The notes under the pieces were generated by a model, which did no database searches, was not told the DNA's origin, and was given only the letters and a program-made list of their open reading frames with translations. The translations under genes and the position numbers were made by a program. This document shows, piece after piece, positions 34,038 through 46,577 of a DNA stretch of 64,000 bases (the stretch's first letter is position 1; the number at the start of each line of letters is the position of its first letter). The stretch comes from Neptunicoccus cionae (lineage in GTDB: Bacteria; Pseudomonadota; Alphaproteobacteria; Rhodobacterales; Rhodobacteraceae): positions 53,881-117,880 of the forward strand of contig NZ_BMKA01000007.1 in assembly GCF_014643735.1 (NCBI RefSeq), read 5' to 3'.

Positions 34038-37000
34038 ATGGAAAAAAGCCTGTTCCGATACATTTGGAAGTATTCCAAGCGCCGCCAGTTACTTTTGCTT
34101 GCGCTGACAATTGTGACATTTCCGGTGCTTTACATCAGTTTGGAACTGCCCAAGCGGATTATCAATGATGCGATCGGGGGCAGTGGCGAGGATATTTCGT
34201 ACTTCGGCTTTACCTTCAGTCAAACCGAGTTTTTGATGGTTCTTTGTTTCGGTTTCCTGATCGCCGTATTGGCAAACGGGCTGCTGAAGATGCGCCTGAA
34301 CACGATGAAGGGCGTGCTGGCAGAACGGTTGCTACGCCGGTTCCGGTTCCAGTTGTTGACCCGAATGATGCGGTTCCCGCGTCCCTATTTCCGCCAGACC
34401 AGTCAAGGCGAACTGGTGGCGATGGTCACATCCGAGGCTGAACCGATGGGCGGTCTCATGGGGGATATGATCTCGCAGCCGGTGTTTCAGGCGGGGCAGA
34501 TGATCACTATTCTGGCCTTCCTTTTCGCCCAGAGCTTCTGGTTCGGGCTGGCATCGGTGGCGCTGATCCCGTTACAGGCATGGCTGATCCCGCGTCTGCA
34601 ACGTCAGATTAACCTGCTGAACAAATCCCGCATCGAAGAGGTGCGGCACCTCGCCTCTGATATCGGCGAAACTGCGGCGGGTGTCAGTGATATTCGCACC
34701 AACGGCGGGTTGCGGTACCGTGCGGCGCAGTTTTCAGACCGGCTTGGCAATCTGTTCAACATCCGGTTTGAGATCTACCAGAAGAAATTCTTCATGAAGT
34801 TCCTCAATAACTTCATCAACCAGCTGACACCGTTCTTTTTCTATTCGGTCGGCGGGTATCTGGCGATCAAGGGTCAGATAACGGTGGGCGCTCTGGTGGC
34901 TGCACTTGCGGCCTATAAGGATCTGTCGTCGCCGTGGAAGGAGCTTTTGATGTATTACAATCAAGTGCAGGATATGGGGCTGCGCTGGCAGATCGTAACG
35001 GAACGCTTTGCGCCAAAAACGCTGGTGGATGACAGCCTGTTTGAAGGCGAAGCGGAGGAAATCCCGAGCCTGCGCGGCGATGTCGTACTGGATGATGTTA
35101 CCGTACGCGATGACGCAGGCGATATCGTGCTCGAAGATATTACCCTCACAATCCCCAAAGGGGCGCGGGTGGCGATCAAGACGACCAACGAAACCGCCGC
35201 GCTGGCCTTTGCCGATCTGCTGACCCGAGAGGTGCTTCCTGCGCGGGGGCGGGTGCGGATTGCGGGGCACGATCTGAACAGCCTGCATCAATCCGTGGTG
35301 GCAAACCGCATCGGCTATGCCAGCCCTTTTCCGCAAATTTTCCAAGGCACAATGGGTGAGAACCTGCTAATGCCTTTCCGCCGCAAGCCCCTGATTGACA
35401 GCGACATTCTTCCTGAAATGCACCGCTGGCAGGAAGAGGCCCGCCGTGCTGGCAACAGTGATGATCCGCTTGGTGTGAGCTGGCTGGACCCATCGCTCGC
35501 CGGTTTCAAAGACGAAGATGAAATCCGCGACTGGTGGTTCAGTCTGGGTGAAGCCATGGGGATCGACGAGTTTATGGTGCGCCGCGCCTTGCGTCATCGG
35601 CTCGATCCGGTGAATCAACGTGAATTGGCCGAGAAGATCGTGGAACTGCGCCCCGAAATTGCCCGACGGTTGAAAAAAGCGGGGCTCGGGGATATCGTCC
35701 ATCATTTCGATCCGCGAAAGTTCAATCCGGTCTCGCCGCTGGGCAGTAACCTGTTGTATGCGATGCCAACGCGGATGTTGACGCAAGAAAGCCTCGCGGA
35801 GCAGCGCAAGTTCTTTAGCATTCTCAAGAAAGAAAACATCGTTGACGAAGTGGCGGAAATGTCCGCCAGTCTGATCGAAGGGGTGGTCGCGACGTTTGGC
35901 GAAGATGGCACCGATCACCCGTTGTTCCGCCAGTTGAATATGGATGACGCGCTTTATCACAAGCTGCGCAATGTCACGAAAAAACGCCGCCTCCAAGGCA
36001 ACGATGCGCTAACTCCGGAAGAGTTCGCGCTGATGCTGACGGTGCCGTTTGCGTTTAGCGCTGAACAGATCGGCCCAGCTTTTACGGACAGTTTTAAGGA
36101 ACGGGTTCTGGACATCCGTATGCAAAATGCAGAGCATATGGTGGCAGAGTTGGACGGTCTGTTCGAAACCATCCACCCCGATCGCTACATGCCTGTGATG
36201 ACGGTGCTCGGGAACGCGATTTTCGGGCGGATTTCGCGGATGGCGGGTGCCCGTGAAAAAGAAGTGGAAGATCTGGTTGTCGAGGTTCTGAACGAACACG
36301 GCTTGCGGCGTCTGGCGGCACAATCCATCTACGATCTTGCCACCGGTTCGGGAGGGCAAAACCTGCCGCGCGTGTTCCGCGAAAGGATCGCGTTCAGTCG
36401 GGCCGGACTGAAGAAACCCGACATTCTCATCCTTGGCAACGCTCTGGCCAGTCATGACTCGGCCAAACGTGCGCAGATGCGAGAGCGGATTGGGGCATTG
36501 ATGCCCGACACTACCAAGATATTCATCGAGAACCATTTCTCAAACCCTGATCTCTATGATCTCTACGTCGAGATTGTGGACGGACGTATCGACGGTGTGC
36601 GTCGGGCTGAAGAACCTGCGGATGAAGACGCAAAACAGGATCTTAAACGCAAGCTGCGGGTGGTGGCGCAGACCGGTCTGTTTGCCAATCTCGACCAGAA
36701 ACAACAAAGACTGCTCGCTTTTAGTGCGCAGTGGTATCCGGCGAAATCAGGGCAGGTCATTTTCGCACGGGATCAGGCACCGGACGCGGCTTATCTCTGT
36801 GTGAAGGGCAAAGCAGGGATCTACTGGGCGGGCGAGGGTGCGGAGGACCGGTTGGTGACTGAAATCGAACCGGGACGTTTGATCGGGGATCTGGCCATTA
36901 TCCTGAACGAGAAACGGGCGATGGATCTGATCGCATTGGAGGATTCCCAGTTCTTGCGTATTGGCGCATCCGAATTGCTGGCTGTGATTGAAAACGATAC

Positions 37001-37127
37001 CAATGTGGCGACCAGTCTGTTGCGCACCGTTGCAGGCCATTTGATCGGCGCGGCCGAGAACGCACGCGCAACGCGGGAGTTCGCGGTGAAAAAGGGGCTC
37101 GACCTGTCCGAACTGGACGGGGAGTGA
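34038..37127 (+). CDS. ABC-exporter-like protein with degenerate, interrupted ATPase domain and C-terminal cyclic-nucleotide-binding domain
   Basis: 1029 residues. Residues 1-330 look like an ABC exporter membrane domain (hydrophobic segments near 18-35, 64-84, 150-180 and 255-292). At 346-450 an ATPase domain begins (VVLDDVTVRDDAGDIVLEDI), but Walker A is replaced by AIKTTNETAAL (379-389) and the Q-loop by ASPFPQIFQGTMGENL. About 315 extra, mostly helical and charged residues follow (451-765). The domain then resumes with a kept signature TGSGGQ (769-774), DILILGNALASHD where the Walker B acid should be, and a histidine in IENHF. Residues 875-1010 form a cyclic-nucleotide-binding fold (LIGDLAIILNEKRAMDLIALED). 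ATP hydrolysis seems unlikely. The single gene ends before a terminator. Confidence 0.75.
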   Translation: MEKSLFRYIWKYSKRRQLLLLALTIVTFPVLYISLELPKRIINDAIGGSGEDISYFGFTFSQTEFLMVLCFGFLIAVLANGLLKMRLNTMKGVLAERLLRRFRFQLLTRMMRFPRPYFRQTSQGELVAMVTSEAEPMGGLMGDMISQPVFQAGQMITILAFLFAQSFWFGLASVALIPLQAWLIPRLQRQINLLNKSRIEEVRHLASDIGETAAGVSDIRTNGGLRYRAAQFSDRLGNLFNIRFEIYQKKFFMKFLNNFINQLTPFFFYSVGGYLAIKGQITVGALVAALAAYKDLSSPWKELLMYYNQVQDMGLRWQIVTERFAPKTLVDDSLFEGEAEEIPSLRGDVVLDDVTVRDDAGDIVLEDITLTIPKGARVAIKTTNETAALAFADLLTREVLPARGRVRIAGHDLNSLHQSVVANRIGYASPFPQIFQGTMGENLLMPFRRKPLIDSDILPEMHRWQEEARRAGNSDDPLGVSWLDPSLAGFKDEDEIRDWWFSLGEAMGIDEFMVRRALRHRLDPVNQRELAEKIVELRPEIARRLKKAGLGDIVHHFDPRKFNPVSPLGSNLLYAMPTRMLTQESLAEQRKFFSILKKENIVDEVAEMSASLIEGVVATFGEDGTDHPLFRQLNMDDALYHKLRNVTKKRRLQGNDALTPEEFALMLTVPFAFSAEQIGPAFTDSFKERVLDIRMQNAEHMVAELDGLFETIHPDRYMPVMTVLGNAIFGRISRMAGAREKEVEDLVVEVLNEHGLRRLAAQSIYDLATGSGGQNLPRVFRERIAFSRAGLKKPDILILGNALASHDSAKRAQMRERIGALMPDTTKIFIENHFSNPDLYDLYVEIVDGRIDGVRRAEEPADEDAKQDLKRKLRVVAQTGLFANLDQKQQRLLAFSAQWYPAKSGQVIFARDQAPDAAYLCVKGKAGIYWAGEGAEDRLVTEIEPGRLIGDLAIILNEKRAMDLIALEDSQFLRIGASELLAVIENDTNVATSLLRTVAGHLIGAAENARATREFAVKKGLDLSELDGE

Positions 37128-40521: not shown

Positions 40522-40728
40522 GTTAAATCCTTTTATCTTCACCCCCAAATACAATGGGCGGCGTATAAGTCCAGTCCTTCCGCCTGCATTACAATCTGTT
40601 CACGGTTTTGCCTTATTACAACATTAACAGGCATATTGGTGCTGGTGGCGGCTGTGTGATTGTAGCTTGCCCATGCGCCGCTTATGGTATGGAAAAAAAG
40701 AACCAGCGGTCTACAAAGGGACAGTATC

Positions 40729-42369
40729 GTGGCAGGCAAAGACTATCAAATTGCGGCATTGTGGATGGAGGGCAGTCTAAGCTTTCTAGAGCAGTTGTGC
40801 CTGAAATCCTTTGTAGATGCGGGTCATCATGTAAAGCTGTACCACTACGGCCCCCTGCGGAATGTGCCCGAGGGCATGGAACTCGCCGATGCGGCCGCGG
40901 TTCTGCCTCGTACCGATTTTCTGGCCCACGCCCGCACGGGCTCTCCGGCGCTTCATTCCGATCTGTTTCGCTATAAAATGCTGGAACAGAACAAGGATAC
41001 CATCTGGGCGGATACCGATGCTTATTGCATGAAGCGGTTTGAAACGCCGAACGGGCATTTTTATGGCTGGGAGTCAGACAAACATATTAACGGCGGTGTG
41101 CTTGGCCTACCGTCCGATTGCGATACTCTGGGGGAGCTGCTGGAATTCACATCCGACGAATTCGCAATCCCGACATGGTATGGTGACGATTACACCCGCG
41201 AACTGGAAGAAGCCCGCGATGCCGGTAATCCGGTGCATGCGTCAGAGCAGCCTTGGGGCGTATGGGGCCCCCACGCGGTGACGCATTTCCTGCATAAAAC
41301 CGGTGAGGCGAAATATGCCTTGCCGCTAGAAGGTCTCTATCCCTTCACCTATAAAGACCGCCGCATGATGTTGAAGCGTAACTTCGACACCACCCCTTAC
41401 GTGACCGAGAACACCTATTCCATTCACCTTTACGGTCGCCGTATGCGTGCGCGTCTGGTTGAAAAAGAAGGCGGTGAACCCCATCCTAAAAGCCTGTTGG
41501 GGCAGTTGATCAAGAAGCACGGTATCGACCCGTCAAAAGCCCCTCTGCCTATGTCAAAGGCACAACAGGCAGCGGCGAAAGCCCCAAAGGGAGAGAAGGT
41601 TAAACCGACAGAGAAACCTGCCAAACAAAAGAAACCCGCCGCGCCGGTTGCTGCCAAAGCAGCGCCGCTGGAACCATCCGCACGGACAGGGATCGGGCAG
41701 GTCAACCTGACTGACATTGCCAATAAATACAGCACGGACAAAGGCTCTGCCAAACACCGCTACACAGAACTTTACCAGATGTTGTTCCTACCCTTGCGCG
41801 GCCGCAAGCTGAACCTGCTGGAAATGGGCTTGCTAAACAGCGGGCCAGAGCACGAAATCGCGGCAGAGCGGATCACCAATGATGCGCCTTCCGTCCATAT
41901 GTGGTTGGAATATTTCCCTAAGGCACAGGTCTATGGCCTTGATATATCGGATTTTAGCTGGCTCGATAATCCACGCTTTACCTATGTGAATTGTGACATG
42001 GACAGCCGTGAAAATATCCAGAAAGCTGCAAAAGGCCTGCCGCAGATGGATATTGTCGTGGACGACGCCAGCCATGCTTCCCACCACCAGCAGGGCGCCT
42101 TTCTGGAACTGTTCCCGAAGTTGGCCTCTGGCGGGTTTTACACCATTGAAAACCTGCGCTGGCAACCCAACCATATGGAGCAGAAGGGTATCACCAAGAC
42201 GGCTGATCTGTTCTACGGCTATCAGAAAGACGGGGTGTTTACCCATTCCGATCCAGCCATTGCCGACGAATTTAACGCGCTGCGGGAACAGATTTCGGGG
42301 TGTTTCATCTATCAGGTTGGCTTTAACAAATCCCGCAAGGACCAGTTGATGGTTGTCCAGAAACGGTAA
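40729..42369 (+). CDS. glycosyltransferase-methyltransferase fusion protein
   Basis: 546 residues from the GTG at 40729, chosen for the AAAGGGAC site upstream; an ATG at 40684 gives 15 more residues but has no such site. Residues 1-265 look like a DXD-type glycosyltransferase of the capsular/galactosyltransferase kind (HSDLFRYKMLEQNKDTIW, then DTD at 95-97). Residues about 270-325 are a lysine/proline/alanine-rich linker. From 325 on (LTDIANKYSTDKGSAKH, LLEMGLLNSGPEHE, IVVDDASHASHHQQGAF) the protein is like macrocin-type sugar O-methyltransferases. It could add a sugar and methylate it. It opens a five-gene cluster; the next gene starts five bases on. Confidence 0.72.
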   Translation: MAGKDYQIAALWMEGSLSFLEQLCLKSFVDAGHHVKLYHYGPLRNVPEGMELADAAAVLPRTDFLAHARTGSPALHSDLFRYKMLEQNKDTIWADTDAYCMKRFETPNGHFYGWESDKHINGGVLGLPSDCDTLGELLEFTSDEFAIPTWYGDDYTRELEEARDAGNPVHASEQPWGVWGPHAVTHFLHKTGEAKYALPLEGLYPFTYKDRRMMLKRNFDTTPYVTENTYSIHLYGRRMRARLVEKEGGEPHPKSLLGQLIKKHGIDPSKAPLPMSKAQQAAAKAPKGEKVKPTEKPAKQKKPAAPVAAKAAPLEPSARTGIGQVNLTDIANKYSTDKGSAKHRYTELYQMLFLPLRGRKLNLLEMGLLNSGPEHEIAAERITNDAPSVHMWLEYFPKAQVYGLDISDFSWLDNPRFTYVNCDMDSRENIQKAAKGLPQMDIVVDDASHASHHQQGAFLELFPKLASGGFYTIENLRWQPNHMEQKGITKTADLFYGYQKDGVFTHSDPAIADEFNALREQISGCFIYQVGFNKSRKDQLMVVQKR

Positions 42370-42374
42370 TTCCC

Positions 42375-43283
42375 ATGTCTGAAGAGATCCAATCCGAAGA
42401 GATGGAACGACAGGTTGAACGGGGGATAATCCCCGACTGGTATCGTGACATCTATCCGGACGGGGAACGGGACGGCTTTTACGAAAAGCTCGGCTCTCAT
42501 TCCTTGTGTTATGTGGAGCGCAGCCTCGGGCAGCTTGTCATCAGTTTTGACAATCTGGCAGAGGCCGGACACGATGGCTATGACCGAGAGGCTTGGGCAT
42601 CGGGGTTTTGCAATTACAACAACTGGTCCCATCTGGGGATTTTTGCCCAAGGGCCAAGCTGGTTTCGCGATGAACGTCTAATTGCACGTCTGGAAAAGCT
42701 GCGGGATGACGGCTTTTTTGCGCAGTTCAACTATGTCACATTGGCCGGTGCGTCGATGGGCGGCTTCGGTGCGTTGGTGTTTTCTGCCCTTGTCCCGGGC
42801 GCAACTGTCATCGCTTTCAGCCCGCAATCCACTCTGCGCGAAGACCTTGTCCCTTGGGAAACCCGCTATGCAAAAGGCAAGGAATACGACTGGACCTTGC
42901 CTTACGGGGATGGGGCACGCGCGCTTGATACGGCCGCCAAAGTCTATGTGATTTACGATCCTTATGAACCAAGCGACAGCCAGCATGCGGCGCGGCTTAC
43001 GGGGGCAAATGTTGTTCCGTTGCGGGCCTACGGGTTCGGCCATCGCTCTGCCCTGTTCCTGCGCAGGCTTGGCGCGTTGAAGCCTGTGATGGGGGAGGGC
43101 GTGATCGGCACATTGGACGCAGAACGCTTTGCCCAAATGATCCGCAATCGCGGCGCGGTTTACCTTTATAAAACCCAGATGGAAAATTACATGCGCCGAC
43201 GCGGGCGTGAGGTCTGGGTGCCAAAGCTGCAAAAAGCGTTCAAGAACCGGCGCAAACGCCTTGAAGCGGGGCAATCGGGATGA
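42375..43283 (+). CDS. alpha/beta-hydrolase-like protein of the glycan cluster
   Basis: 302 residues. The nucleophile elbow LAGASMGGFGAL gives Ser127, with a plausible acid at Asp195 (VIYDPYEPSD) and histidine at His223 (YGFGHRSALF), so a serine-hydrolase triad is likely. The C-terminal 60 residues are very basic (RRRGREVWVPKLQKAFKNRRKR). Similar proteins have been called phosphosulfate reductase-like; nothing here supports that. An esterase or acyltransferase acting on the glycan is a reasonable inference. Its stop overlaps the next start (ATGA). Confidence 0.6.
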   Translation: MSEEIQSEEMERQVERGIIPDWYRDIYPDGERDGFYEKLGSHSLCYVERSLGQLVISFDNLAEAGHDGYDREAWASGFCNYNNWSHLGIFAQGPSWFRDERLIARLEKLRDDGFFAQFNYVTLAGASMGGFGALVFSALVPGATVIAFSPQSTLREDLVPWETRYAKGKEYDWTLPYGDGARALDTAAKVYVIYDPYEPSDSQHAARLTGANVVPLRAYGFGHRSALFLRRLGALKPVMGEGVIGTLDAERFAQMIRNRGAVYLYKTQMENYMRRRGREVWVPKLQKAFKNRRKRLEAGQSG

Positions 43284-44320
43284 GCAGCTTTCTTGGCGTC
43301 ACCTGCTTGCGCAATGAAGGGCCATATGTGCTCGACTGGCTGGCCCATCATCTGGCCGCCGGATTCGATCACATGTTGGTGCTGACCCATGATTGTGACG
43401 ATGGCAGCGCAGAACTGCTGCAGGCTCTGTCCGCAGACGAACGCGTCACCCATCTGCCGTTTGATTATACCGCTGAAAAGTCTGTGCAATGGCAGGCGCT
43501 AAACATTGCCAAGATCCACCCGCTGGTGAAGTCTGCGGATTGGGTGATGTTCTTTGATTGCGACGAATATCTGAACCTGCCTGAACCTTACACCAGGCTT
43601 AAAGACTTGGTGCCCACGATGCCGGATGCCGAGGCGATTGCTTTTCCGTGGCGACTGTTCGGCTCTGCCGGACAGGAAGCGTTTGGCGACGCACCCGTGG
43701 TGGAGCGGTTCACACAGGCAGCCCCGCGGCACATCCATTATCCGCTGGCCAACCTTTACAAAACGCTGTTTCGGCCCAAATCCTTTCGCCAGCTTGGCGT
43801 CCACCGTCCGCGCAACAAAAAAGACAGCGTGCCGCGCTGGTATGTGTCCAGTGGCCAGCCCTTGCCCGAGAGGGTGGCGGCAAATGACAAGGCGATCTCG
43901 CTTTATGGATTGCTCGACGCCGATGCGCCGATTGCCTATCTTAACCACTATTCCGTCCGTTCCGCGCAAGAGTTTTTGCTAAAGGCGCAGCGGGGCTTGC
44001 CCAACCATATGGACCGCGCGATTGACCTGTCTTACTGGGCGGAACGCAACTTTAATGCAGTCACCGATGACAGCATTTCGCGCATGGCACCGGCGACAGC
44101 GTTGATGCGGGATCGCTTGCACGAACGGCCCGACGTGGCCGCGCGGTACGATGCCTGCGTGGCAGAGCACCAGCGCCGGATTGCGGTGTTGCTGGAGGAT
44201 CTGGATAACATCCGCATGATCTGGCGGCTCGGCCTGCTGGCGGGCAGCACACCACCGCCGCGCGCACGGGCGCAGCGATACATACAGAACCAGATTAAAG
44301 CGATGCAGTACAATGGCTAA
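43280..44320 (+). CDS. glycosyltransferase, family 2/92-like
   Basis: 346 residues. SFLGVTCLRNEGPYVLDWLAHH at the N-terminus and the metal-binding triplet in VMFFDCDEYLNLPE (Asp93-Cys-Asp95) mark a GT-A fold of the GT2/GT92-like group, which also keeps FPWRLFGSAG and LNHYSVRSAQEFLLK. It is closely related to the C-terminal half of the next gene and coupled to both neighbours by overlaps of four and eight bases. Sugar donor and acceptor are unknown. Confidence 0.82.
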   Translation: MSSFLGVTCLRNEGPYVLDWLAHHLAAGFDHMLVLTHDCDDGSAELLQALSADERVTHLPFDYTAEKSVQWQALNIAKIHPLVKSADWVMFFDCDEYLNLPEPYTRLKDLVPTMPDAEAIAFPWRLFGSAGQEAFGDAPVVERFTQAAPRHIHYPLANLYKTLFRPKSFRQLGVHRPRNKKDSVPRWYVSSGQPLPERVAANDKAISLYGLLDADAPIAYLNHYSVRSAQEFLLKAQRGLPNHMDRAIDLSYWAERNFNAVTDDSISRMAPATALMRDRLHERPDVAARYDACVAEHQRRIAVLLEDLDNIRMIWRLGLLAGSTPPPRARAQRYIQNQIKAMQYNG

Positions 44321-46577
44321 CCCGACAGGAAACGAATTGCTGAGGCGCAGTCTCGGCGTGGTTGAAGCTGAAGGAATTGTGCTGCTCGATGCTGTGTCGC
44401 AACTGCGCGAGGGCAAGCGCTTCGTGCATCTGTTCTTTCGCAGCGATGCAGATACTTTGCGGGTGTTTCCGGGCAAGGAGATGCGCGTTCTGGAAACCCG
44501 CAGCATTGGCGGTGCGATGTGGTGGACCTGCGAGGCGGATGCGCCGACCGGCCCGCTGAAGATGGTGTTTGCCGACACGCCGGTCGTGATTGAACCGGCG
44601 GAGCAGGAAACGGGCCTGTTCGCGGATAAGAACTGTTTAGTGTCTATCCGCAACGGGGAAACGGCTGAAACGGTTCTGGACTGGTTGGCCTATCATGCGC
44701 AGCACCACGGATTGCAGGGCGCGGTTATTCTGGATCGGGCAAAGCCCGGCAGCGACAAGGGTTTCATGCGCAAGTTGCGCGATGGGGTGAAGCAGCTGGA
44801 ACAGCCTTGTACCGTGCTGTTGCTGGACGGTGCGACGCCTCTTGGCCATCCGGATCGACCCGCCGAATCCCACCCGTTCTGCGCGCCGGATGCACCGGGC
44901 AAGGACCGGATGGATATTCCCGCGTCTGACCCTTGGGCCGCGCCCCTGCGCGAGGTGTTGATTTACGAACAAATCCGCAATCGTTTTCTGAATGCGGCGC
45001 GGGCTGTGGCGAATATTGATGTTTACGATCTGATGGTTGAAGGCGATCAGCCTAACACGCTTTTTGACGCCGCCGTTGCAGCACCTTCTGGCTGTATCCC
45101 GCTGGCAGGGCGGCATGTTTACCCGTGGCGCACCCGCAAAAATATGCCAGCCAAATTCGGCGATCATATTTGCGTGCAGTTTGATGCCCGAAAGCTGAAG
45201 CAACGCTGGTGTATCGCCCCTGCTAAGGCCGCAGACAATGCGATCTGGCGGCTGATCCGTGTCGGTAATGTAGCTGTGGATGTGAAAACCGTGCGTCCGT
45301 TTTATCGGTACATGTCGCTGCGCCACCCGACACCCTCGGTCGCCAAGATCGTTCCGAAATCCAGTCTTGTGGAACATGAACCGCTCATCAAACTCGCCCG
45401 TAAACGGTTCGGGTCCAAGCCGGTGCGTATGCCGGAAATCAAACCGGAGAAAGACGCCGGACGGGGCCGCGCAGCAATCATTACCTGTATGAAAAACGAA
45501 GGCCCGTTCATTCTGGAATGGCTGGCCTATCACCGCGCGATCGGGTTTGATGATTTTCTGGTTTATACAAATGATTGCACGGACGGCACGGATACCATGC
45601 TCGACCTGCTGCAAAAACGCGGCTTGGTGCAGCATCGGGACAATCCGTTTAAAGAGTCCGGGCTAAAGCCCCAACACGCCGCTTTGCAAGCCGCCGAGAG
45701 CGAAAAGATCATGCAGAAAGCGGGCTGGCATGTCTGCATGGATGTGGATGAATTTATCAATATTAAATGCGGTGACGGGACGCTGGACGCGCTGTTCAAC
45801 GCGGTGCCGGATGCCAATATGATCGCAATGACGTGGCGGCTGTTTGGCAACGCAGATGTGGACGAATACCGCGACGAACTGATCACCGAGCGGTTTGACC
45901 GTTGCGCGCCGGAATTCGCCAACAAACCCCACCAGGCTTGGGGGTTTAAGACGCTCTACCAAAACATCGGGCTGTTCAAAAAGATGGGGGTTCACCGTCC
46001 CAAAGGGCTGAACCCGCAGCTTTGGGAGCAGATCAATTGGGTCAACGGTTCGGGCAAGCGGCTGCCCAAGGACATCTACCGCAATGCGTGGCGGTCTACG
46101 ACGGAAACTTACGGCTATGACCTGGTGACGCTGAACCACTATGCGGTGCGCAGCGCTGAAAGCTTCTTGGTCAAACGGGATCGCGGACGGGTGAACCACG
46201 TGGATCGTGATCAGGGGCTGGCCTATTGGTTTCGGATGAACAACAACTCCGAGGAAGAAACCTCGATCAAGCGAATGCTGCCAAAACTGCGGACGGAGTA
46301 TGACAAGCTGCTGGCTGATCCGGAAATTGCCGCGATCCATGCGGAGTCCGTCAAACGGCACCGTGCCAAGATCGACGAACTGCGCAACACCGAGAAATAC
46401 ACCACTTTTTACAAGGAACTGACCGGCCCGCGATTGCGAAAACTCTCACGGCTTCATTCCCATTTCGGGGCTAATGTGTTTCTGACAGGACCGGATTGTG
46501 TGCCCGACGAAGTTGTCGCGAAGGATCCCGAAGCGGAGTTCTTTTTCACCATTGAACGGGGCGAGACGAACCATTAA
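44313..46577 (+). CDS. two-domain glycosyltransferase (degenerate N-terminal copy plus GT2/92-like domain)
   Basis: 754 residues. The C-terminal domain starts near 388 (AIITCMKNEGPFILEWLAYH), has the metal triplet DVD at 477-479 (CMDVDEFINI) and shares MTWRLFGNAD and LNHYAVRSAESFLVKRDRG with the preceding gene. The first 385 residues contain a weaker echo, SIRNGETAETVLDWLAYH (111-128) and NIDVYDLM near 234, but no clear DXD, so this half looks like an inactive duplicate or an acceptor-binding domain. Overlaps the previous gene by eight bases. Probably acts on a surface or secreted glycan. Confidence 0.72.
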   Translation: MANPTGNELLRRSLGVVEAEGIVLLDAVSQLREGKRFVHLFFRSDADTLRVFPGKEMRVLETRSIGGAMWWTCEADAPTGPLKMVFADTPVVIEPAEQETGLFADKNCLVSIRNGETAETVLDWLAYHAQHHGLQGAVILDRAKPGSDKGFMRKLRDGVKQLEQPCTVLLLDGATPLGHPDRPAESHPFCAPDAPGKDRMDIPASDPWAAPLREVLIYEQIRNRFLNAARAVANIDVYDLMVEGDQPNTLFDAAVAAPSGCIPLAGRHVYPWRTRKNMPAKFGDHICVQFDARKLKQRWCIAPAKAADNAIWRLIRVGNVAVDVKTVRPFYRYMSLRHPTPSVAKIVPKSSLVEHEPLIKLARKRFGSKPVRMPEIKPEKDAGRGRAAIITCMKNEGPFILEWLAYHRAIGFDDFLVYTNDCTDGTDTMLDLLQKRGLVQHRDNPFKESGLKPQHAALQAAESEKIMQKAGWHVCMDVDEFINIKCGDGTLDALFNAVPDANMIAMTWRLFGNADVDEYRDELITERFDRCAPEFANKPHQAWGFKTLYQNIGLFKKMGVHRPKGLNPQLWEQINWVNGSGKRLPKDIYRNAWRSTTETYGYDLVTLNHYAVRSAESFLVKRDRGRVNHVDRDQGLAYWFRMNNNSEEETSIKRMLPKLRTEYDKLLADPEIAAIHAESVKRHRAKIDELRNTEKYTTFYKELTGPRLRKLSRLHSHFGANVFLTGPDCVPDEVVAKDPEAEFFFTIERGETNH

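Follow-up and report, generated by a model that had tools for sequence, protein, structure and literature searches.

Transport driven by ATP is what defines an ABC exporter, and the ORF at positions 34038 to 37127 of the window (the whole 64-kb stretch of DNA analysed) raises the question of what an exporter might do once the residues of its motor are gone. The first-pass annotation had described an exporter-like protein with a dead, interrupted ATPase domain and a cyclic-nucleotide-binding tail, and had read it either as a sensor or scaffold using an ABC shell or as one half of a heterodimer. Its architecture, dead motifs and insert stood up to comparison with relatives; its kept SGGQ signature did not. 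The protein belongs to a family, here called pseudo-ABC exporters, of which no description was found in the literature searched (subscription journals and preprints lay outside the coverage).

Domain architecture and ATP motifs

The ORF, the ABC membrane domain and the cNMP-binding domain recognised in the first pass were all recovered. In the 1029-aa product, Pfam assigned ABC_membrane to residues 39-290 (68.5 bits, cut-off 28) and cNMP_binding (PF00027) to residues 903-987 (50.7 bits, cut-off 27.5), and ABC_tran at residues 365-467 scored below threshold (23.2 bits, cut-off 25). Pfam and fold matching together placed an exporter transmembrane domain (TMD) ahead of a nucleotide-binding domain (NBD) fold. 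From its sequence and predicted structure, in which pLDDT falls below 50 in two TMD stretches (residues 157-174 and 284-293), the protein is judged to be an ABC-exporter half, ABCB-type by descent, with the NBD fold kept. The coordinates of its features are collected in Table 1.

Alignment with relatives confirmed that Walker A is without GKS/T, that the Q-loop glutamine is a proline and that the Walker B acid is replaced, the Asp-Glu pair being Gly800-Asn801 in this protein; the H-loop His is Asn832. Residues 771-774, previously taken for a retained signature, proved to be the Gly-rich loop preceding it, and the true signature position, 24 residues ahead of Walker B, does not read LSGGQ. Walker A Lys, catalytic Glu, H-loop His and the Walker A glycines are all missing from the protein.

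Relatives with normal motifs, which had been considered a sign of sequencing or assembly error here, were not found. Among 153 aligned relatives (L188 was left out as the same locus as L007, and L041 and L067 were also dropped), intact Walker A (GxxGxGK[S/T]) and LSGGQ were each found in none and the Walker B Asp-Glu in three, and no aligned member kept the full motif set. Walker A Lys was absent from all 87 Rhodobacterales-type members. The 66 remaining members were less damaged, with Walker A Lys kept in 30, catalytic Glu in 33 and His in 17; Asp/Glu replaced the Walker A Ser/Thr in 53 of them and Asn/Ser replaced the Walker B Asp in 45, so that both Mg ligands are lost in most. This lighter damage outside the Rhodobacterales-type group suggests that the Mg ligands were lost earlier, and that the wider erosion within that group came later. 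By alignment and structural modelling, the NBD of the family is predicted to keep the ABC fold while being without the residues needed for Mg-ATP binding and hydrolysis, and automatic annotations of the type 'ABC transporter ATP-binding protein' are corrected accordingly.

The insert of about 315 residues noted in the first pass was borne out. Matches to ABCB-type exporters in the PDB and NCBIfam searches reach approximately residue 446 and resume at approximately residue 735 or 764 (in the PDB search, residues 735-851 match ABCB19 8wp0, E 1.4e-16), and this division of the exporter matches into two blocks indicates that the insert is real. The first pass missed that the insert contains an internal duplicate: most of it consists of the NBD's own Q-loop/helical subdomain repeated in tandem (HHalign E 1.9e-15), and one Asn in each of the three copies is invariant throughout the alignment.

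Table 1. Features of the pseudo-ABC exporter gene, in window coordinates
Feature	Residues	Position	Strand	Remarks
Pseudo-ABC exporter, whole ORF	1029 aa	34038..37127	+	Single ORF, 950 aa or longer, in 78/80 homologous loci
ABCB-like transmembrane domain	1-330	34038..35027	+	Slowest-evolving domain
Degenerate NBD, first part	345-450	35070..35387	+	
Dead Walker A position, TTNETAAL	382-389	35181..35204	+	Alignment with relatives
Q-loop position (Pro430) and copy 1 of F-x-GT-x3-N element	430-450	35325..35387	+	Asn442 invariant, 153/153
Insert, ~315 aa	451-765	35388..36332	+	Solved exporters align as two pieces skipping the insert
Copy 2, Q-loop/helical-subdomain module	527-612	35616..35873	+	Asn571 invariant, 153/153
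Copy 3, canonical helical subdomain running into signature position	683-767	36084..36338	+	Asn726 invariant, 153/153
True signature position, LPRVF for LSGGQ	776-780	36363..36377	+	LSGGQ in 0/153 relatives
Dead Walker B, ILILGN	796-801	36423..36440	+	Alignment with relatives
Cyclic-nucleotide-binding fold, C-terminal	~875-1010	36660..37067	+	Pfam cNMP_binding; Gly950 and Arg960 of cassette kept, Glu replaced by Asp951

Distribution of the family and its membrane-domain-only relatives

The pseudo-ABC exporter family is widespread and mainly alphaproteobacterial. A tblastn search of plasmids with the protein gave 467 matching records, 199 of them at a coverage of at least 80%, and a scan of genome contigs gave 80 homologous loci, in which the only departures from a single long ORF were L041, truncated by a contig end, and L067, interrupted. 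With a profile of the insert region, matches were obtained in 26 of 299 genomes in the phylum of the Pseudooceanicola genome G001 (source of L015), a count that includes an ordinary 600-aa exporter (L122), and in 113 of 337 genomes in its class, approximately one third, a count that includes two contig-end fragments (G415, G572) and one gene with an in-frame stop (G495). In its family the profile matched 31 of 149 genomes, 22 of which carried at least two copies. Full-length genes 63-68% identical to the window protein were also present on four contigs labelled as Granulosicoccus/Gammaproteobacteria MAGs (L009, L011, L013, L014), a placement due either to binning error or to transfer.

Median dN/dS was 0.037 for the TMD, 0.065 for the NBD core, 0.079 for the insert and 0.067 for the cyclic-nucleotide-binding domain (cNBD), as computed from 14-16 of 17 pairs with synonymous sites near saturation. 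Since these values are low in all four domains, the protein is read as a working one. In 27 loci of one Rhodobacterales subfamily the pseudo-exporter gene is followed immediately, on the same strand, by a gene for a CAAX-type endopeptidase (for example L002:9086-9985). This is an undercount, since ORF calling overlooked the family gene itself in six loci (L005, L083, L141, L142, L143 and L146).

Proteins of about 434 aa that consist of the membrane domain without an NBD were also found, and the two that were compared are 40-42% identical to the TMD of the window protein. Their genes are flanked by copper genes on Pseudosulfitobacter, Sulfitobacter and Roseovarius plasmids; at L159:7773-9077, L160:7773-9086 and L231:4001-5305, on Roseobacteraceae plasmids, the neighbours are genes for an azurin-like copper protein and a cytochrome c. 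The pair from L159 and L160 gave a dN of 0.061 and a dS of 0.51. At least 80% of one TMD-only protein was covered by 93 plasmid records, many of them near-identical, and 26 of the 361 plasmid records matching a TMD-only query did so at 99% or more. With canonical exporters as the outgroup, the TMD-only proteins branched inside the pseudo-exporter family, in a tree whose bootstrap had not settled and whose outgroup rows were long; such relatives show that a membrane domain can be retained after its NBD is gone. The TMD-only ORFs at L232-L238 are more divergent (318-413 aa, approximately 25-36% identical to the copper-island form), and among these only L238 had an ABC NBD-like stretch close by.

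The cyclic-nucleotide-binding domain and the glycan gene cluster

Most family members carry a cNBD, either fused or encoded by the next gene. It is fused in the Rhodobacterales-type group, where Gly950 and Arg960 are kept in all 87 aligned members, and also in Azospirillum and L007; in Rhizobium and most other sampled lineages it is the next gene. In the class-level sample a cNBD was present at all 40 loci, as a separate next ORF at 39, and at the phylum level (L127-L148) at 17 of 22. The loci without one (L143-L146 and L148) form the deepest branch, and the glycan cluster described below is absent from their flanks as well. When a Rhizobium cNBD was used as a tblastn query, 12 of the 80 loci L008-L087 were unmatched.

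An intact cNMP phosphate-binding cassette has the form G-E...R-S/T-A. The 39 separate cNBDs of relatives show the consensus GEIAIL..PRTA, which we take to be a cyclic-nucleotide cassette. In the window protein the cassette is degraded to G-D...R-A-M and no longer has the intact form. Cyclase homologues near the gene were uncommon, being found in 7 of 123 sequences (the query's own locus included) and at one of the 40 class-level loci, which is the same locus as L007. In Rhizobium sp. N621 (L161:644-15280), one strand carries an upstream adenylate/guanylate cyclase, an ABC importer (ATPase, binding protein and two permeases), three glycosyltransferases, the pseudo-exporter and the cNBD. By analogy with HetC, whose cNBD bound ppGpp and not cAMP in the portion of the study cited (PMC10986499), the ligand of these domains may not be a cyclic nucleotide.

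Outside the Rhodobacterales, many family members adjoin a conserved cluster of glycosyltransferase, phosphatase and deacetylase-like genes. Members of two or more of four glycosyltransferase families were encoded on the opposite strand at 37 of the 40 class-level loci (fetched stretch 11-20 kb), a proportion that is likely too favourable since the loci were hand-picked from the 113 positives, mostly better-scoring ones with long contigs. A histidine phosphatase was found at 33 of these loci and the deacetylase-like gene, whose name comes from plasmid annotation and which had no Pfam match above cut-off, at 29. A gene of the PF12692 methyltransferase family (for example L202:11185-11682) also lies some 2 kb downstream of the pseudo-exporter, on its strand, at 27 of the 40. 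In the phylum-level sample, drawn from 20 genomes, the glycan cluster was present at 13 of 22 loci and the glycosyltransferase pair was absent from 9. On plasmids of Sulfitobacter dubius and S. indolifex, whose pseudo-exporters are 69-70% identical to the window protein, the cluster genes lie directly upstream on the same strand. The glycan locus gave no match to a described system.

No cluster gene was found in the flanks of the 80 loci L008-L087, mostly Rhodobacterales, in those of the 10 loci L149-L158, or anywhere in the 64-kb window, and the link to glycan genes there rests on co-occurrence. The cluster was likewise not found near the gene in Azospirillum (L004, L005) or L007. Three long plus-strand ORFs of the window (40684-42369, 43280-44320 and 44313-46577) give the impression of glycosyltransferase- or methyltransferase-like genes, and the interval 40684-46577 was unmatched by the glycan-cluster queries. 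Among 149 genomes of one family, the GT4 gene occurred in 30 of the 31 with a pseudo-exporter and in 5 of the 118 without (Fisher 3.7e-25), and the deacetylase-like gene in 29 of 31 and 3 of 118, respectively. As these genomes are related and shared ancestry inflates co-occurrence, such P values are too small; the better argument is the contrast with a single control, an unrelated neighbour gene from the same plasmid neighbourhood of L001, which showed no association (3/31 versus 15/118). Short TMD matches were present in three of the five genomes having the glycosyltransferase gene without a pseudo-exporter, and when any TMD relative was counted, it coincided with the glycosyltransferase gene in 33 of the 149 genomes, with exceptions of 1 and 2.

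Possible function

The loss of the ATP motifs, in a protein belonging to a family with these traits, indicates that it probably works without ATP. We consider it an even call that the protein serves a glycan system as a pseudo-exporter that is regulated by a ligand and needs no ATP. It would dimerise as other half-exporters do, and the dead NBD with its extra helical copy would form a fixed docking or regulatory platform instead of acting as a motor. Binding of a cyclic nucleotide or a similar ligand to the cNBD would set the conformation of the membrane domain, and the pseudo-exporter might gate, scaffold or passively conduct a step of glycan or glycolipid export or assembly, probably at the surface, in an ATP-free manner. 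A bolder version is offered tentatively from the same comparisons: an exporter lineage may have abandoned ATP, its TMD becoming a ligand-gated, ATP-independent glycan conduit or flippase controlled by a cNMP sensor through a dead NBD that had grown by duplication of its coupling (helical) subdomain, while side branches may have discarded the NBD and some stand-alone TMDs may have been recruited to copper-resistance islands. For the co-inherited glycan locus, the family would provide a putative membrane component and regulator, and it would allow a motor-free exporter membrane domain to be tested directly.

Of the two interpretations in the first-pass annotation, the sensor or scaffold in an ABC shell without ATP-driven transport gains support from the motif loss in all 153 aligned members, the cNBD found with most of them and the NBD-less relatives. 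A stricter form of it, in which the protein moves nothing but anchors glycosyltransferases or a polymerase at the membrane while its cNBD relays a cytoplasmic signal, would also agree with the uniformly dead NBD, the frequent cNBD and the co-occurrence with glycan genes. We regard this pure regulator as rather unlikely, although deserving of attention, since the membrane domain evolves most slowly (dN/dS 0.037) and survives in TMD-only relatives having neither NBD nor cNBD, both of which fit a membrane domain that has a function of its own.

The other interpretation, in which the protein would be the degenerate subunit of a heterodimeric exporter and a partner able to use ATP would be encoded elsewhere, found no support and is improbable. 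Degenerate sites are known from TAP (ABCB2/B3), TmrAB and TM287/288, as far as the cited portions of PMC7756269 and PMC5216877 describe them, and chains of such transporters were among the tied best fold matches to the window protein. However, no canonical exporter half was found in 164 loci with flanks (short loci, two TMD-only loci and L188 included) using three query exporters that match each other at 9.5e-57 or better, and two-copy genomes pair two family members (22/31 genomes). The loss of the signature as well would affect both composite sites, which also argues against a heterodimer half.

Comparison with known systems sets the family further apart. Unlike the homodimeric ABCB-type exporters MsbA, PCAT1 and BmrA, the family has no intact ATP motif, and the window protein differs from them in its insert with a duplicated helical subdomain and in its C-terminal cNBD. 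It resembles the degenerate-site exporters TAP, TM287/288, TmrAB and yeast Pdr5 in that a site has lost the Walker B Glu and signature residues; those exporters, by the cited part of PMC7756269, retain one canonical site, whereas no aligned family member has a full motif set and the vicinity yielded no partner. The peptidase ABC exporter HetC of Nostoc is alike in joining a cNBD to an ABC exporter, but in the portion of PMC10986499 cited its cNBD is N-terminal, a C39 peptidase is present and the ATPase is essential, whereas the window protein has a C-terminal cNBD, a dead ATPase and no peptidase (no Pfam match to the C39 peptidase domain at E up to 1). The pseudo-exporter family fits neither the one-site degenerate exporters nor HetC, the one studied cNBD exporter found in the sources as cited.

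A switch that still binds ATP through unusual residues without hydrolysing it is a very doubtful alternative to the ATP-independent pseudo-exporter. The Lys, Glu and His kept by some non-Rhodobacterales members would allow for it, but the window protein has none of these residues nor the Walker A glycines, and the Rhodobacterales-type group has lost the Lys throughout. A decaying gene, an assembly error or a chance ORF, to which the loss of every catalytic motif and the interrupted copy at L067 might point, was ruled out by the 78 of 80 intact loci, by purifying selection in each domain and by identical losses in the 153 aligned relatives.
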